Positions 29,246 through 39,600 of a stretch of DNA of 64,000 bases are shown one piece after another (position 1 is the stretch's first letter; each line of letters begins with the position of its first letter). The notes under the pieces are model-generated. The model did no database searches. It saw only the letters and a program-made list of their open reading frames with translations, and was not told the DNA's origin. Source of the stretch: Roridomyces roridus (lineage: Eukaryota; Basidiomycota; Agaricomycetes; Agaricales; Mycenaceae). The stretch is from the NCBI GenBank assembly GCA_029378245.1, contig JARKIF010000015.1:310001-374000 (forward strand). The letters are read 5' to 3'. The position numbers and the translations under genes were made by a program.

Positions 29246-31362
29246 CCCCTACTCTGTCAAGAGGAGGGTTCTGTGGGGCTGAAACGTTCTGATCTCCCGC
29301 AAAACTCGTGCGATCAATTTGTTCCGAGTACTTTACGTAATCGGTCATATGATTTGTGGACGTACCAGGTCTTGGTGCCATCATTTTTTCTGTAACAAAA
29401 AACCGATGCGCTTCACGTGACTTAAGGTGTGTTCCTCTCGTTTGATTCTCATTGGTACCTTTTTATTTTTCATTCTGATCTTCATACCTCGTCTATAACC
29501 CCGGCCTGTCCATGGCACTGTCTTGTTTTCTCAACATCACATGATCAGTACCTCATGGATCTGTTGAATGTTCACCGGGCCCTTTTCCAATCACACCGGT
29601 GCGGAATATTTCGGTGGATTGTCCCTGGACCTCTGGACCTCTATCATGCTCCCTGCTGTGCGTTACAGTTTCACTCTCCTTTGTGTTGGGTGGTTGCATA
29701 GTCCGCAGATTATCTGCGGCAGATATTCTTGGTTGCATACCAACTACATATCAACTTCTGTACCCAAAGTTCCTTTCATATATGCTATAGCCCTCCTCCT
29801 GTATGCAACTATATTTCATCTTTTCTGTGCATTTCAGCCATTTCCCGTGATGTCTACCTTGATGGAGAGCTATCAATTTTTGTGATCATTGTTCAAACAC
29901 TGGGAGCTGAGTCAAAGCCCTGTTGTCTCTGTGGTTGTGATTCTTTGACTCGGACTTTGATCAATAGACATGGGCTTGTGGCTGTGTGCACTCAAATTTT
30001 TTAGGATGCATAGCCACGATGTACCGCAACCAACTTGTTGAGCCCATTGAGCCCACTGGTCACCATGTACTCAACATGAACTCATATTTTTTTCGACGTT
30101 TGAGCTTCTAGAATTTGAAGGTGATTTGTCGAACACGGATGATTTTTGGCTTTTGGACAGCCGCCGTGAGCGTTCAATAAGTTGGGCATGCGAGGCTATT
30201 TATAAATGGCTGTAAGCTGTGTACTGGTAGGGACATTTGGTGTGAATTCATTGTTAGGTGTTTACGAACGTCGAAGATCCCTGCGCCTGGTTTTAAAAAT
30301 CAACATTATTCAGCAGTTGACAGTCAATGACAACACTGATTGGTATTTTCACAGACAGTTCACATTGTTAGGATGTCTCAGAAATATTTCCGTATTTTAA
30401 TGCCCACGGAGGGCCAATCCCAGGCTGCTTCTTCGTCTCATTGTGCTGTTGTTTGTGCTTTGATGTATGCGAACGCTGAGCACGACTAAGGCTCCAACCG
30501 TTTGCAACCGTTTGCAAACGGTTTCCGAACGGATAAATTGGTGATACCCCTTCTAGTGTGTTCGGAGCGGCCCCAAGATGCTTTGGTGTGCACATGGAGC
30601 CAATCTGCTGAGTATTAGAGTTGTTTGACGCCAATAGGGAGGGAGATTGGGAACTCATCAAGTAAGATTGGTTTGACTAAGCAGCTGCCGAGAGCACGGG
30701 GCTCAATTTCACTGGTGGTATCAAGGTGTTATGTGGGTTGAATGACCTGGACCAAAGAAACTGTTGGACCACAGGTGTACAGGCCTGCTGGGAGACTGCA
30801 ACTAATAATGATTGAGCTGATTCTAGCCCCTCCAGGTGGGCCACAAGAAACTGTTTCCAAACTGTTTGATAAACCGTTTCCGGGTCATCGCAAACAAAAC
30901 GGAAATAAAAACCGTTTTTTCGGCACAAACAGTTTGCGAACGGAAAAGGTTGGAGCCTTAAGCACGACTTGAGAGGCACTAGTGTGCATTAAGCTTTGAA
31001 GCTAGTAGGAAACAGAAAGAAGTACTCGGTCTGCCGGGCAAAGCCGCGGCCCACCCACCAAGTACTTGTTTGTACAACGGACTAAGCAGTCCATGGTAAT
31101 GGTAATGCATAATGATGCATGATCCGTGTTACGCCTTGAATATTGAATTGTCATCGAACCTCTGCAGCTTCCGTCCATGAACAGTTGCAATTGCTTTCCT
31201 GCTCAAACTTGACCAATGACTTTCCTCCAATCACTTCATTGTTCAGTCACTTGCACCAAATACAAAAATACATTGAAAATACAAGCCATGGTTTGATCAG
31301 TAATGATGGTTATCTTTGCCGGAATAACCTGTGGGGCTGATCCTTAACTATCAGAGTAGGGG
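29246..31362. mobile_element. 2.1-kb insertion with CCCCTACTCTG inverted ends inside the GH16 intron
   Basis: The GH16 intron runs 29197-31393, about 2.2 kb instead of the usual 50-80 nt. The extra DNA is bounded by CCCCTACTCTG at 29246 and its complement CAGAGTAGGGG ending at 31362. CTGTGGGGCTGA also occurs near both ends as a direct repeat (about 29270 and 31329). No clear target duplication and no transposase frame are seen. It carries a nested hAT-like MITE. Confidence 0.6.
30487..30960. mobile_element. hAT-type MITE nested in the GH16-intron insertion
   Basis: The 474-bp element has a perfect 13-bp terminal inverted repeat, TAAGGCTCCAACC. It is flanked by the 8-bp direct repeat AGCACGAC at 30479-30486 and 30961-30968. 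An 8-bp duplication with a TA-starting inverted repeat is the hAT signature. The interior is full of short CCGTTTGCAAACGG-type palindromes and has no coding capacity. Confidence 0.9.
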
Positions 31363-32687
31363 ATCGGCGCTTGCGCCGCTATGGATTCGTTAGGGCGAGG
31401 TGGATATCATCGAGGGGGTTAATGATCAAGGCGCCAATCAGATCACCCTGCACACTTCACCTGGTACGTTAGCCAAGCATATGATCACTGTTGAAAGTAA
31501 GAATCTGACCCAGAGTTCAGGATGCTCAATGCCGGCTACGCGGACCCAGACGGGGTGGGTCTTACCATTCGGTACTTTTCTGAATGCGTAATTTTATTTC
31601 CAGGACATCTCTCCAATTGGATTGCAACACCCAAGTGAACGGCAATGCCGGCTGCGGCGTCAATGCGTCGCGACCAGCTACGGGCCGTCGTTCAACGCAA
31701 ACGGGGGTGGATGGTGAGTGTTCCTTCAATCCCACGCTTCAAGTTATAATAATCCCAACGTCACTACAGGTACGCCATTGAACGCACCAACTCATTCATC
31801 GACGTGTAGTTCTGGCCTCGTAACACCGGCAACGTGCCAGCCAATGTCCGAGCCGGCGGCACGAGCGTCAATACGGCCAACTGGGGCACCCCCACAGCCA
31901 ACTTCCCCAACACCCAATGCAACTTGCCTCAGTTCTTCAGCGGTAACAATATTATTATCAACCTCACCTTCTGTGGACAGTGGGCCGGCGCTGTGTATGG
32001 CAATTCTGGGTGCCCCTCGACTTGCAATAGTGCGTAGCTGCGTTGTTCTTTCCATCCGTGGGGTGTCCAAACATCAAACCTCTTGCCAGGCTTTGTCGAC
32101 CAGAACCCTTCCGCGTTCAACAACGCGTACTTCGAATTTATAAGAGCATTTTTCACAACAAATAAAATGGTTGAGATTCCGAGTGAAGGTATTGACCTTG
32201 TGGGGAATGGTTTGGGATTTTTGCCGTGATTGAGCCCGATGGTTCAAGGTTTGGAGGATGGTTTATCTTTGAGCTTGATGGTCTGGGCCTCTTTGCTCGG
32301 CTTGCTTCAAGGTTTTCAGTTCCAACCAGCTGGTTAGTGGATGTGCTTCCAGCTGCATGGTTCCGAGTTCAGACTCAGTAAGTACTAGTGCCCAATCAAG
32401 GTGCAAGTATGGGTCTTCCCGTGACACTGTCCAACTCACATCGAAATTCGGATCAAACGAAACATTCTGACGTCGGCCCGAGATTCGGCTCAGTGTGATG
32501 TCTCCAGAAATATGACCCAAAGTCCGAAGGGAACTTGTAAACTGACAACTCTAGAGAGAGCATCGAAAAAGTTATTGCTCCGAGTCGAACCACCCAGAGT
32601 CGGATGGGGGATGATTGGTCTCCAGTTGTGTCCCATGGTTCAATGTTTTTGGATGTGCCACCCCGGCTGAGCAAAGGCAGTGATGTG

Positions 32688-32930
32688 CGTCCTGCAATCA
32701 ATTTGATGAGAGTCCGAGCCGAGAAGCCGATCCACCCGGCAGACCAAAAACCTCAACCATCCCCCGGCAACCATCGACTGACATCTGTTTCACATGATCC
32801 TTACACCTCAACCATGCTTCGAGCACTCGTTCTCCCAGCTCAAGCTCTGAAGCATTAAGTAAACTTCAACCAAAACCATCAACCATCCACCATTTATTTT
32901 TTGGCGATAAATAACCTCATACAAATTCAA
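32688..32930. repeat. Copy 1 of a diverged ~240-bp direct repeat
   Basis: Shares an ordered series of blocks with 33263-33500, including variants of CAACCATC, TTTCACATGATCCTT, GAAGCAT, AAACCATCAACCA and GATAAATAA. Similarity was judged by eye. Confidence 0.6.
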
Positions 32931-33262
32931 CTCGATCAATGTGTACGAGTAAGGGATGGGGTGTTGCCTGGGTATTTAAATATTTATTTCATGGTCTCAT
33001 GACGTGGAACGCGTGTAATACTTACTTGGAATCATGGTTTTTGCTTTATGTTGCCACTACGCAGCGCGTTCGGGAACTTGAAACTGATAGTGGCGGGTGA
33101 GGAATACAGAATACACTGGAATGAACTCAGGTTGAACACATTATGAGCCACTCTAGGTACACAGGCAAAAAGAAAATTGCAATGAGCCCTCAGGCTGACT
33201 CGTGAATGCATTGATCTTCAGTTGAGTCCCGGCTTGCGCCGGGCGGATCAGACGCAGTGATG

Positions 33263-33500
33263 TACATCTGACAATCATTCTGATGTCAGTTTCGGCTTGT
33301 GTTAGTGCGAATCCGAACCGATGATCCTGTGGGTAGACCGTCCCTTCAACCATCCTCACAAAGCCATCGAGTGATATTTGTTTCATGTCATCCTTGTATC
33401 CCACCCAACCAGGTTGTTCTCAGCTCGGCGAGCAGTGAAGCATCAACCGAAACCATCAACCAACAAGTATTCAATTTTTTTTTTGTGATAAATAATGTGA
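33263..33500. repeat. Copy 2 of a diverged ~240-bp direct repeat
   Basis: Partner of 32688-32930 in the same orientation and the same order of conserved blocks, ending in GATAAATAA and an A/T-rich tract. Confidence 0.6.
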
Positions 33501-33932
33501 TAGACAAGACCAAGACAAGACACCAATCAAACGAAGGAAAGTCTCTACGCGGGGCCAGATTTGAAACCCTTGGATGCCGGACATTTTCGGCTGCTCGATC
33601 CGCGTGGATGTCGTGTTGAAGTTACAGCCTCACCGCCCTTCTCCCGTCAGAGCGCCCTCGCCGCTTGAGACCGAGTCTCCAGCGTTTCACCCTGATTTGA
33701 GGGAGTTAAAATGCTGCTGGACTCTTCGATCACTTGTGCCCAAGTAGAGAAGCAAGATCAAGTCCGACAAATCGCAACATTTCTGTCAAAAAGGCTGTTG
33801 CACCGGCTTGCACCGGCTGGTGCTCGGGAACAGCTTTTCTCCGACCCCAAATCGCTAATTTAACTTCACAGACACATGACAACTTCCCGTCGTTACTAAT
33901 GCGGCGCGGCGGCGCAGGGCGGCCTCAGTGCA

Positions 33933-33939
33933 TATAAAA
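33933..33939 (+). promoter_or_regulatory. TATA box of the pepsin-like protease gene
   Basis: TATAAAA lies 45 nt upstream of the ATG at 33978. Confidence 0.6.
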
Positions 33940-34185
33940 ATCGGTCCTTCATCTGCGACTCAGGGACGTCGTTTCTCATGATTATGTTTCCCCTGGTTGC
34001 CATCTTGTGTTTCTCCAGGGCCACCGCTCTCCTTACCTCCGAATCTGTTGTGCACATCTCTGGAAGGATACCCCGTCGAGAGTTCAAGCGACACGACGGA
34101 GCCCGCGGCAGGCCCACTCCAAACACGATAACACTGGATGGCGCGTCCTTCGAGGATGAGTACCTCGTAAACATTACCGTTGGCG

Positions 34186-34609
34186 GTAGGGCTGTGTTGA
34201 GAAAGAAATGTTAAATAACCTGTACTACATAACACGTAATTTAACGTGTTATTAACATTTTTCACAAGGGGACCTCCGGGATGGTTGTTAAAATTGTGTT
34301 ACAAACTGAGTGCCACCTCAGAACACGAGCCATCTGTGCAACACACTCCCCACCAACTCCACACCGGACTGTCAGACTCTGGGGCCAGGCAGATTTTGGC
34401 GGCTCAGACCAAGCTCAGACACAACTTGGGGGCCCGGCATGCGGCGTGATGGATGGTCAAAGTGATGGGATCATGGGAAATTGCCATTTAGGGCAATGTT
34501 ATGTCATGTTAGATACAATGTTATTAACCTGCCATTGTTAAATAACCAGCGGCCCTCCTGGACCCCATGTAACATAACCAACCGTGATATCATTTCAACA
34601 CAACCCTAG
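34186..34609 (+). other. Putative transposon-derived intron
   Basis: This 424-nt GT-AG interval coincides with the MITE plus one base of each target duplication. It is phase-compatible with the flanking coding sequence. Actual splicing is not shown by sequence alone. Confidence 0.5.
34187..34608. mobile_element. hAT-type MITE inserted in a protease exon, spliceable as an intron
   Basis: The 422-bp element starts TAGGGCTGTGTTGA and ends with the complement of TAGGGTTGTGTTGA. It is flanked by the exact 8-bp target duplication GTTGGCGG at 34179-34186 and 34609-34616. The last G of the left copy plus TA gives a GTAGGG donor, and TA plus the first G of the right copy gives a CCCTAG acceptor. Splicing 34186-34609 keeps the frame and adds only Val-Gly. 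Confidence 0.9.
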
Positions 34610-35831
34610 TTGGCGGCCAAGGATTTCAGGTCATTTTGGATACCGGCAGGTTCGTGTTCTCTCCATTGGCTGAATGAATCAGGTCTGAGGCATATGTACA
34701 GCTCCGACACTTGGGTGGTCCCCGAAGAATCCCGTCCCAGCCGCAACCTGCGACTTTGGTCCAACCCAATTCAACCCCACAGACTCGCCCACATTCGAGG
34801 TCTTCCCAAATCACACCTTCTTCCTCCGTTACGGCTCGGGTGAATTTCTTCGGGGACCAGCTGGCTTTGACACCGTTTCTGTCGGCTCTATCTCTGTCTC
34901 CGGGCAGGAAATCGGCGTGCCCAACATGAATGTCTTTAAAGGAGACGGTGTCTCGGAGGGTGTATTGGGCCTGGCATTCCCAGGATTGACGAGTATCTAC
35001 TCTGACAACGGCACCGGGCTTGTTCAGGAACAGTACAGCCCCTTCTTCCTATCGGCCATCGCTCAGAAGCAGATTACCAATCCCCGTATGTGCATTCCTT
35101 CTCCCGAAGGCACACCATCTGACACCATTCAGTCCTCTCCATTGCCCTCAACCGGCCAACATTCACGCAACAAGCGCATGATCCGTTTGTACCTGACCTC
35201 GGAACCATCGCATTCGGTGGAATCGTCCCCGTCCCGGTCTCACAACACAAATACATCACCGTCCCTATGCAGCGATACGCTCCCAAAGTCTTCGTCCCTT
35301 CCAACGACCCAACCGCAACACCGTTATGGTACTCGCTCGACGTTGACGGGTACACGTTCTCAGGCAGCTCTTCGGTGGTCACGAAAAGCAACAGCACGAT
35401 CCTCGATTCGGGGTCGACCGTAAACTTCCTCCCCACGGCCGTCGCCGCGGCGTATAACGCACAATTCCGCCCACCGGGCTTCTCTGACCCCGTTGCGGGG
35501 TGGTTCGTCGTCCCGTGCAATGCCACTGCACCTCCGTTTACGGTGCATGTGGGTGGAGTGCCGTTTGAGATTGATACGAGGGACCAGGTGGTGCCGCAGC
35601 CGAATAATACTGCTGGGGCAGAGCCCGGGAGTATATTCTGTATGTCTGGAACCCAGGATGGTGGACCTCCGGATGAGGATGGGGCGATTTTCATCCTGTA
35701 TGTGACTGTTTTCGTTCATTCGTTTTCACTGACGGACGTTGGCTAGTGGGGATGTGTTCTACCACAATGTTGTGGTGACACTCAATCCCGTAGACTCGGA
35801 GATTACACTGTCTCAGAGAGCGCCGTACTAA

Positions 35832-36141: not shown

Positions 36142-36177
<36 letters not shown>

Positions 36178-36634
36178 GGCCGAAAATTCGTTATGAGCCG
36201 CCTCATGCGTCGAGCCCGAGTCGAACGGGAATCAAACGTGAATTGATGAAAATTGAAAATTGAGTCCTTGTCTGTGGAGAATCGGTCCTTCATCTGCGTA
36301 GATATAGGTCCAGATCGCAAGAGAAATGAACGCTGAAAAGAGGGAGCTGAAGAGTCCGACCGTCTTGTTGTGTCTCGCCCAAGTCTCGCCGTTGATCGGT
36401 GACACGACAGGACGAACGTGATTGGTTGGCAGTGTTTGGTCCGATTTGAAACGCCCTTTGCCTTTAGCCGTCATCCTGTGCCGCCCGCACCTTGTCCTCC
36501 CCTCCTCTCTCTCTGCACAACCTCGCCGTGGAAGGCCTCTAATAGCGTCCACGCCGTTCCTACGAAACTCTGCTCATCTCCTGTCGCCGTGTGTGCCCTG
36601 AAAGCTGTCCAAAAGGGCATCGCCGAGTATTCAC
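35832..36634. other. Intergenic with poly-A tract and SINE-like piece
   Basis: Contains a run of 29 A at 36146-36174. Next to it, on the minus strand, is a tRNA B-box-like CCCGTTCGACTCGGG (36206-36220), so that on that strand a B box precedes a long T-run. The rest is the promoter of the next gene. No coding gene seen. Confidence 0.5.
36146..36174. repeat. Poly-A tract (29 bp)
   Basis: Uninterrupted A-run followed by GGGGG. It reads as a T-run on the minus strand, downstream of the B-box-like motif. Confidence 0.9.
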
Positions 36635-39600
36635 ATGGTCGACACCACGCTCTCTAAGTGGATAGAAGCCGCTCAGCAGCGGGCCCTCGAGAACGCTCCC
36701 ACTCCCACCAACGGGTTGCCGCACCTGTTCGACGTTGACGACCAGACATGGGCTGGCGTCTATCTCTTCGGCCCCGTCGGCCGCGTCTTTGGCGCCTTTA
36801 TCGACCGCCATCGGCATTCCACCAAGAATTCGATTGTGATCGTACCCGGTGGCCAACGTCCCCATTCTCCCGTCGACGTCTGTGAAAGCTTGAAGCGGGC
36901 TGCTATCGACCTCGAGCGGCTGCAACAGGCGGCGACGGCGCCAAATCACACCACTCAGGCAGCGAGCCAATATCTTGACTTCCTCGTGCGTCGTTGTTTC
37001 TCATGACACTAAGGGTACTCATGATACAAAAACAGCTCTGGCTCGAAGCCTTCCTCCACTTCCTCCTATGGAATGGCTTCCCCGCCTTCCTCTCCGCTAA
37101 CCTTGTCTCTGATTTGTACACGCACCACAGAGAAACATACCAACCACCTCCGGGAACAGAGTCACACCAAGTTGACGCATTGCGCGACAAGAATCTCCAT
37201 GACCGTCGTCAGGCACACCAACCCACGGGTCCCGTCGACCCCACCCTTCGAGGCATCACGATCGTCATTCTGCCCGCCGACTGGATTGATCCGCGCACAT
37301 CGGCTGCAGGTGCGAGTGCTCGTGGCGTCATCGACCCGCAGCGCGGCTTGATGTTCCCTTCGTGCTTCCCACCGCCACCACCGCCCACGACTGCTGTGAG
37401 CAAGGAATCGGAGGACACGCGTGCTTCGGAAGGCTCTGATTCCGGGCCTCCGAGTATTGCTCCCGTGTCTGCCCCCGTACCCACTCCCCACTCCCCATCG
37501 TCCCAAAATTCCACGACGACGGCCACTGCAAAGCGGAAGGCTTCACCGGATCCTTTGACGCCAACGGACTCTGACACCAAGCGTCGGCGTACGTCTACTC
37601 CTGAGATGGAGTCGGTTGCCGTGGGAGCGAGCAGCGGTTATCCCCATGCTGAACCCACCGAGCCCGTGGCAGCGACACGAGCCGCGTTGCCGATGGCGAG
37701 ACTTTCGCCACCCCCGGCGTCTTCTCCGACTCCTCCGATCCTATCTTCAGTTGCGACTGCTACTGCGACTGCGAATCCTAATCTGAATCCCGATCTCAAC
37801 CTCCCTCCTCCCACTCCCATTATTACCCTCGACTCTGGCTCCAGTTTCAGCGCCAATCTCAATTCCAGCTCCACTCATAGTACCAGTCACGATGGCCACA
37901 ATAAAAAGTCTCATTATCGTACAGTGTATCCCGAATCAGCTGTTGTTGGTCCTATGCACAACACCTTCGGCACCCAGCGCGAGACCGTTGTGGTTCCTCC
38001 TCCTCCTCCTTCGCAGAACAACGCCGCCGTTGAAGGGCACCGTGATATGAATGGTGCTGGGCTCGAGGTGCGTGGTTGATATTCCTATATCGTTCGACTG
38101 ACTCTCGGCTCGCAGGTACATAAAATTAAAGAGAATCCCGCGGTGGACGGTCCTGAGAAGCATGTCCACACCTCATCTTCTTCCGAGATGGAGATGCCTG
38201 TCTCCGTGGATCCTGTCAAGGATAGCGGAGCCGCGGTCCCGAACGATGCCGATGTCGCAGCTCCTGCGGTACGTACATAATGTGCTAATAATGTGCGGCT
38301 GATGGATAATATCGCAGGCAATCGACGATAAGAGCACCACTGCGGCGCCCGCTCTTCCAGCTGTTGGTGCCAACACGGATGATCAAATGAAGATGGACTT
38401 GGTAGGACCTTCGGTACGTCCCCCGTGTTTGACGAAATATCATGTTACCGTTTCTAACGCTGCGTGCAGACAGCCAGCATGCCGAAGGTCCTCGGTGCAA
38501 GTTCTCAGAACAGCAACGAGGTTCCGGTGCCGATTTCCATGGATGTAGATGCACTCGTTCCTGCGGTAAGCACGCTGTGCTGGAATAATGCGCTGTTCCT
38601 GACATAGTGTCCAGATAAGCAGCGAGGGCTACGGAGTCACTGCTGATGGCCCCTCTACGAACGACACTCAATCGACGGCTGAGATGCAAGTTGACGAGAT
38701 CTTGCCCGCTGTTTCTGATTCACATTCACATTCGCCGACGAGTGGAAGTGAGATGGAGGTCGAAGCGGAGATTAATGGTGGTAATGGCCACGAGGAGCTT
38801 GTGCATTCGCCTTCCCCCGTTTCTCCCCCGCTATCTCATACCGGTGCGCCCCTCGAACCGATGTCGATCGAAGCCACTTCTGCGTCAACGACTGGGTATA
38901 AGTTCACAGCGTTGACCAACTCTTTACCGCTTCCGAATGTCGCCGCGGGTTCGGCAGCCGCCGGCATTCAGCCTGGCATCATTTCCAATGCTTCTGCCAC
39001 ATCCTCGTCGATGCCTCCACCTCCGGTGCCGCCCGTAGCACCGATGAATGAAGGCAAATTTGTTATCCACTCACCGTTGATGTGTCTGATGCGTCTGCGT
39101 CTGCGTCTACAGTTTTCATCCCGGAATTCAATCCCACACCCAGCCCTGCATTAGTGCGGCCGTCGATTTCGGCCTCCAGCAGCATCAGCAGCATGAGTAG
39201 TCTCGACAGCGCTGGCGCACTCTCTGCCAAACACAAAGCCAAGGGCAAAGAAAAATCCGTCGCACAGAAAATGAAACCAAAATCGAAATCGAAACCCAAG
39301 ACGGCCAAGAACAAGAACAAGGCCAAAGCCAAGAGTCCGTTGGGTCCGGATTACGAGCCTCCATCTCGGCAGAGAAGATCTTCCTCGACGTCTTCTGCTG
39401 CGCGTATGCGTGTGCGTATCGAAGAGCTACCACTGGCTTCGGACGTACAGACCGCTGCGGGTGCACCGCGGATCCTCGGTTCGCATCTCCTCATGTCCTT
39501 CGCCTTGGGTCCGAAGCGGGCTTTTGGGAAGAAGGACGAGATGGAGGGTGATGTGGAGGCGCTGGCGATGTGGTTCAAGGTCGGGGAACGGGAGGGTGTG

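Follow-up and report, generated by a model that had tools for sequence, protein, structure and literature searches.

A hAT-like MITE with GT...AG junctions in a protease exon of the basidiomycete Roridomyces roridus, probably in a gene on its way out

Spliced hAT elements, with maize Ds1 as the example, and introners are already known in print. A 1988 report of Ds1 acting as an intron in Adh1-Fm335 is listed among the references of PMC3260210, where Ds1 of the Ac/Ds (hAT) system resembles the element described below in being non-autonomous and ~400 bp long, with TAGGG ends (Ac/Ds TIR C/TAGGGATGAAA) and an 8-bp duplication. Introners of Aureococcus, Micromonas and others, as far as the excerpted text of PMC9860276 goes, are similar: they are short, have TIRs and TSDs and sit in exons. 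Their splice sites can be drawn wholly or in part from the duplication, and some introners add codons. Of fungi with introners, the same excerpt names ascomycetes alone, and the families of these fungi are without TIRs and TSDs. hAT-derived MITEs such as Mar in Drosophila (PMC3517528) are likewise short and non-coding, carry TIRs and are assigned to hAT; Mar belongs to a different host and is likened here by description, not by sequence. Among the matches listed in a literature search with little coverage of subscription journals, no title dealt with a hAT-derived intron in a basidiomycete. If spliced, the element described below would be a rare glimpse of how a DNA transposon gives rise to an intron in a basidiomycete.

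We analyzed a stretch of 64,000 nt of Roridomyces roridus (the window; positions 310,001 to 374,000 of JARKIF010000015.1, contig C57, 1,507,652 bp) and searched the 90.8-Mb, 501-contig assembly with its DNA. A 422-bp element occupies 34187-34608 (this and all features of the host gene are on the plus strand) and is flanked by two identical copies of GTTGGCGG at 34179-34186 and 34609-34616, which on direct reading is an exact 8-bp duplication. Its ends, TAGGGCTGTGTTGA on the left and TAGGGTTGTGTTGA on the right (reverse complement), are 14-bp inverted repeats with one mismatch, and the junctions are G/TAGGG (left) and CCCTA/G (right), i.e., GT...AG. A mechanical scan for exact 8-bp duplications around 14-bp inverted ends (≤2 mismatches) found two TIR/TSD structures in the window and a single one in ten block-shuffled windows (0,0,0,0,0,0,1,0,0,0); structures of this type are rare by chance. 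The first-pass annotation had described a 422-bp element with an exact 8-bp duplication inside a protease exon, GT...AG borders to which the element and the duplication each contribute half, and a hAT-type MITE in coding sequence. The first two descriptions are borne out by direct reading and by the junctions, and the third by the TIRs, the TSD and the uninterrupted paralogues described below.

The 8-bp target site duplication is found at the window and at related sites, and the short C/TAGGG TIR is present as well, TAGGGCTGTGTTGA being the left end in the window and in the other full copies. The first five bases are identical to the Ac/Ds ends. Our filing of the element as hAT-like is based on two features that it has in common with Ac/Ds, an 8-bp duplication and ends in TAGGG, and not on a transposase. 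It is short and non-coding in the manner of a MITE, with only one stop-to-stop frame above 70 aa, of 98 aa. Compared with maize Ds1, however, the TIR diverges after TAGGG, the host is a fungus, the intron is predicted from sequence, and the host gene carries a second disabling lesion. The hAT dimerisation domain occurs at 32 places in the genome, the nearest one to a listed TIR match on a common contig lying ~85 kb away, and a comparison of these places, the TIR matches and the larger relatives of the element found no autonomous partner with a hAT transposase and the same ends. The larger relatives (761, 1757 and 2289 bp) have a common frame of ~100 aa, which is without Pfam match, and the TIR end on C494, where only one end was seen, adjoins a frame resembling a Copia-type polyprotein by eye.

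Eight further copies of the MITE, 97.9-99.5% identical to the window copy and in two cases 416 bp long, are located at five other insertion sites. Allele pairs with identical flanks were counted once; the pairs C271/C212, C79/C27 and C146/C47 have common flanks and count as three sites, and with the window, C401 and C135 the 422-bp family thus has six sites. Every further site has its own 8-bp duplication, and the two duplication copies are identical at the window as well as at four of the further sites with 422- or 416-bp copies. The C135 copy shows 98.7% identity over 385 bp and has GCCAGGAA at both outer ends. Two substitutions, both G to A, are private to the window copy (element positions 129 and 417, the latter in the right TIR). 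We regard the MITE as young. One extra copy in the assembly matches the MITE over the first 179 bp only, and diverged matches (73.6-76.6% over the first 82-121 bp) are found at eight places. In the wider family, relatives of 442, 558, 761, 1757 and 2289 bp have the common TIR TAGGGCTGTGTT, and their 8-bp duplications are exact except at C35/C164 (7/8) and C473 (not in register). The TIR pattern has 41 matches in the assembly vs 10 for a reversed control pattern; the copy at C401:222970 (right end unrecognised), the C112/C494 end and five other unpaired TIR matches were left out of the site counts. As a side observation, the C135 copy (L018 4450-4491, L016 4057-4441) is split by a nested insertion of roughly 10.6 kb, with element positions 38-42 on both sides as a 5-bp duplication. 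Target duplications of 5 bp are typical of LTR retrotransposons.

The host gene encodes a pepsin-like protease. Its first exon runs up to the insertion (33978-34186; ATG at 33978 or 33984) with an open frame and aligns with copy a of a paralogue pair on C459. Paralogue alignment and frame enumeration place the remainder of the interrupted exon, VGGQGFQVILDTG, at 34609-34649, and this part contains the catalytic DTG. Native intron 1 (34650-34701, 52 nt, GTTCGT...TACAG) is at the same position in the paralogues; it is followed by native exon 2 (34702-35085, by paralogue alignment), native intron 2 (35086-35132, 47 nt, by alignment and the deposited model P0002) and, according to P0002, native exon 3 (35133-35697), native intron 3 (35698-35746, 49 nt) and the last exon (35747-35831), which ends at the stop codon. 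The remaining introns are ordinary and short, as had been remarked on first inspection. There are two paralogous copies on C459 and two on C458, with 74-76% DNA identity, and C459 copy a, which has three short introns, encodes an intact protease of 433 aa. The proposed comparison with an empty site could be made with them: the insertion point is uninterrupted in three of the four copies, and C458 copy a is unaligned upstream of its exon 2. An allelic empty site was not found in the assembly search, where the left flank (33500-34186) is single-copy and the right flank matches paralogues only, so that the empty-site evidence comes from paralogues only. No whole-length second copy of stretches 30000-33500 and 36300-39300 was found in the assembly, nor was an allelic site found for the C401 MITE copy with its left flank. 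Relative to the C459 copies, each of the two C458 protease copies shows a 1-bp gap, to which copy b adds an insertion of 10 bp and copy a a TAA in frame.

About 110 bp downstream of the MITE and next to the catalytic loop, 26 nt that are present in all four paralogue copies are absent from the window gene (between 34727 and 34728). This deletion shifts the frame between SSDTWVVPE and NPVPAATCDFG, although the gap may be an assembly error. When single introns with GT or GC donors at 34617-34799 were enumerated, 11 pairs kept the frame around the deletion (4 GT-AG, 7 GC-AG) and none of them used the native donor 34650. The GT-AG pairs are 34630-34727, 34630-34799, 34654-34727 and 34654-34799, the last two of which retain DTG, as do the GC-AG pairs 34646-34689, 34669-34727 and 34669-34799; DTG is thus retained in five of the 11 pairs, and the downstream SSDTWV in none. 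A functional A1 protease has both catalytic Asp motifs in frame, and here no single-intron pair joins DTG and SSDTWV to the rest. The 334 codons after the deletion are otherwise an open frame with the second catalytic motif DSGS. Over these codons the NG86 estimates are dN 0.18 and dS 0.68 for the comparison with C459 copy a, and dN 0.17 and dS 0.65 for that with copy b; YN00 gives dN 0.19 and dS 0.60 for copy a, and dN 0.17 and dS 0.59 for copy b. The resulting dN/dS of 0.26-0.31 against the two paralogues suggests past purifying selection and a recent loss. Because of the frameshift near the catalytic loop, the window gene has probably become a pseudogene recently or is in the course of being lost. 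Since it is open apart from the deletion, the protease could have been functional when the MITE landed, and splicing could then have mattered.

The deposited protein P0002 (acid protease, Roridomyces roridus) was reproduced letter for letter from the window with exons 33984-34195, 34630-34714, 34728-35085, 35133-35697 and 35747-35831. Its first intron (34196-34629) spans all but nine bases of the MITE, from a donor within the left TIR to the acceptor TTTCAG, which ends at 34629 in the native exon downstream of the MITE, and a 13-nt "intron" joins 34714 to 34728. The DTG stretch is read out of frame, and the catalytic DTG is absent; D[TS]GS is present in the first 180 residues of 109 of the 115 other fetched homologues (≥380 aa) and absent from P0002, and the Pfam Asp match begins at profile position 23. 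No relatives of P0002 were found in bacterial and archaeal genomes. Because of the 13-nt intron and the out-of-frame DTG, we infer that the model probably reflects a prediction forced onto a broken gene and not transcript evidence.

We consider it very probable that the locus is an ordinary insertion of a young hAT-like MITE into a decaying protease paralogue, and that the GT...AG junctions arose by chance, because the element reads TA...TA and the target octamer has, fortuitously, a G at either end. In the sequence of events that we propose, a non-autonomous element would have been mobilised recently by a transposase encoded elsewhere and would have entered, by cut-and-paste, exon 1 of a gene from a group of pepsin-like protease paralogues, where an 8-bp staggered cut would explain the exact duplication seen beside the TIRs; splicing of the MITE, if any, would not yield a complete protease. 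Excision of a TA...TA element with an 8-bp duplication from a G......G octamer leaves 14 of the 16 duplicated bases, which is the empty site plus 6. The two-codon gain at such octamers is fixed, and the fit of the local frame is therefore geometric. In the stretches examined, 7.2% of background octamers are G..G (about 1 in 14) and 7.3% are C..C. GT...AG borders with a kept local frame thus arise geometrically at about that rate in random octamers, which calls for caution, and the whole gene needs checking before a new intron is called.

A rather unlikely alternative is partial or imprecise removal of the MITE, in which transcripts would be spliced, for instance, between a left-TIR donor (34194 or 34196) and the acceptor TTTCAG in the exon, at 34629. 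Leaky maize Ds alleles show imprecise splicing of this kind. The borders of P0002 are exactly 34196-34629, and with the pair 34194-34629 DTG would stay in frame, in the sequence VGGRAVILDTG. On the other hand, the use of these borders in P0002 comes with the 13-nt intron and the displaced DTG and is more likely a product of gene prediction.

Efficient splicing at 34186-34609, with sites formed half by the MITE and half by the duplication, would make the element a nascent intron that adds Val-Gly; this is improbable. The borders are of the right type: the donor GTAGGG has the common G at +5 and is acceptable, not strong, against the donor consensus, and the acceptor is CCCTAG. A splice-site profile built from mechanically predicted introns performed hardly better than a length-shifted control, and we therefore claim no donor score. 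Excising 34186-34609 gives ...NITVGVGGQGFQVILDTG, with two extra residues locally. The original claim that this excision restores the frame with Val-Gly added holds locally but not for the whole gene: the 26-bp deletion shifts the frame, so the excision cannot restore the protease, and the host frame is lost at the deletion when native intron 1 is used. The fit is also not peculiar to these borders. An enumeration of GT-AG pairs across the insertion (donors 34151 to 34420, acceptors up to 34631) found six that keep the frame into DTG, 34186-34609 among them, so that five others do equally well and three of these end at TTTCAG 34629. The would-be intron is 424 nt long, in contrast to the native introns, and the introns of mushrooms are for the most part short and defined as whole units. 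CTRAY is absent from its last 80 nt, which offer just TAAC, 40 and 35 nt before the end, and TGAT, 25 nt before it. The earlier proposal that the MITE makes its own intron is unsupported in view of the frameshift, the borders of P0002 and the alternative GT-AG pairs, and its premise, a protease that works, is at odds with the frameshift. The precedents for a nascent intron are Ds1 in Adh1-Fm335 (listed in PMC3260210) and introners with splice sites derived in part from the duplication (PMC9860276). We likewise see only a slim chance that the window would capture a basidiomycete hAT intron just after its birth, before or during decay of the host gene, and it seems hardly likely that TA...TA hAT elements with 8-bp duplications would in general act as ready-made introns at G......G octamers, adding two codons in any phase.

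The other insertion sites bear on whether the family behaves as introners do. In the wider family, 13 sites have both ends seen, and the ends of five could give GT-AG: G..G or C..C duplications are found at the window, C149, C35/C164, C423 and C469:2652184, i.e., at 5/12 in-register sites (C473 was dropped because its duplication is out of register; C35/C164, with copies differing at one base, was kept), where about 14.5% would be expected (post hoc P of about 0.02). C13, C473, C401, C271, C79, C146, C135 and C469:2349726 have no fitting ends, and in the 422-bp family the window is the only fitting site of six. Crossing frames were listed at 12 of the 13 sites (not C135). Pfam was searched with eight frames from six sites, leaving out the frames of C401, C271, C79, C146, C135 and C469:2349726, and a protein search was done with two frames; the C423 158-aa plus frame and the C469:2652184 93-aa minus frame were left out of the searches. 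The C149 site is crossed by an open frame of 183 aa and the C35 site by one of 138 aa, both in the orientation giving GT-AG. Their length is ordinary: of random positions on one strand, 17% and 32%, respectively, lie in a frame at least as long; two frames at each site are without Pfam match, and one frame each is without homologue among proteins 0.55-1.75 times the query length. The F-box-like frame at C423 (E 0.00012, below the Pfam cut-off) is on the opposite strand, with borders CT...AC. At C469:2652184 the fitting strand has a 93-aa frame only, as at 52% of random positions. C13 has a weaker F-box-like frame, and its octamer TACCGAGT gives no GT-AG. Among the five fitting sites, only the window proved to have its insertion in a recognisable exon and in the GT-AG sense (Pfam with eight frames, protein search with two), so that a look for other copies in coding exons with GT/AG borders, suggested at first pass, found no recognisable sense exon at the other four; this also speaks against a nascent intron. 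The G..G/C..C excess was rejected as introner evidence because it is post hoc and the other four sites lack a recognisable sense exon. Introners in the PMC9860276 excerpt form families of many genic copies, in contrast to the few copies and one exon insertion here, and many copies coinciding with gene introns were not seen. That the family is a true fungal introner, preferentially creating GT...AG borders, is extremely improbable in spite of the 5/12 fitting duplications and the C149 and C35 frames crossing in the fitting sense, given the 1/6 in the 422-bp family, the unremarkable nature of those two frames, the opposite strand at C423 and the octamer at C13.

Other repeats are found near the protease gene in the window. 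A second hAT-like structure of 474 bp at 30487-30960 has ends TAAGGCTCCAACC and an exact 8-bp duplication, AGCACGAC, and positions 30496-30960 match, in whole or in part, at least 18 places elsewhere in the assembly with 75-85% identity. The repeat at 32139-32921 has many matches in the assembly, whole or in parts, with 80-100% identity. About 315 bp past the protease stop codon, 36146-36179 consists of 29 A and then GGGGG, which may be a retro-element tail.
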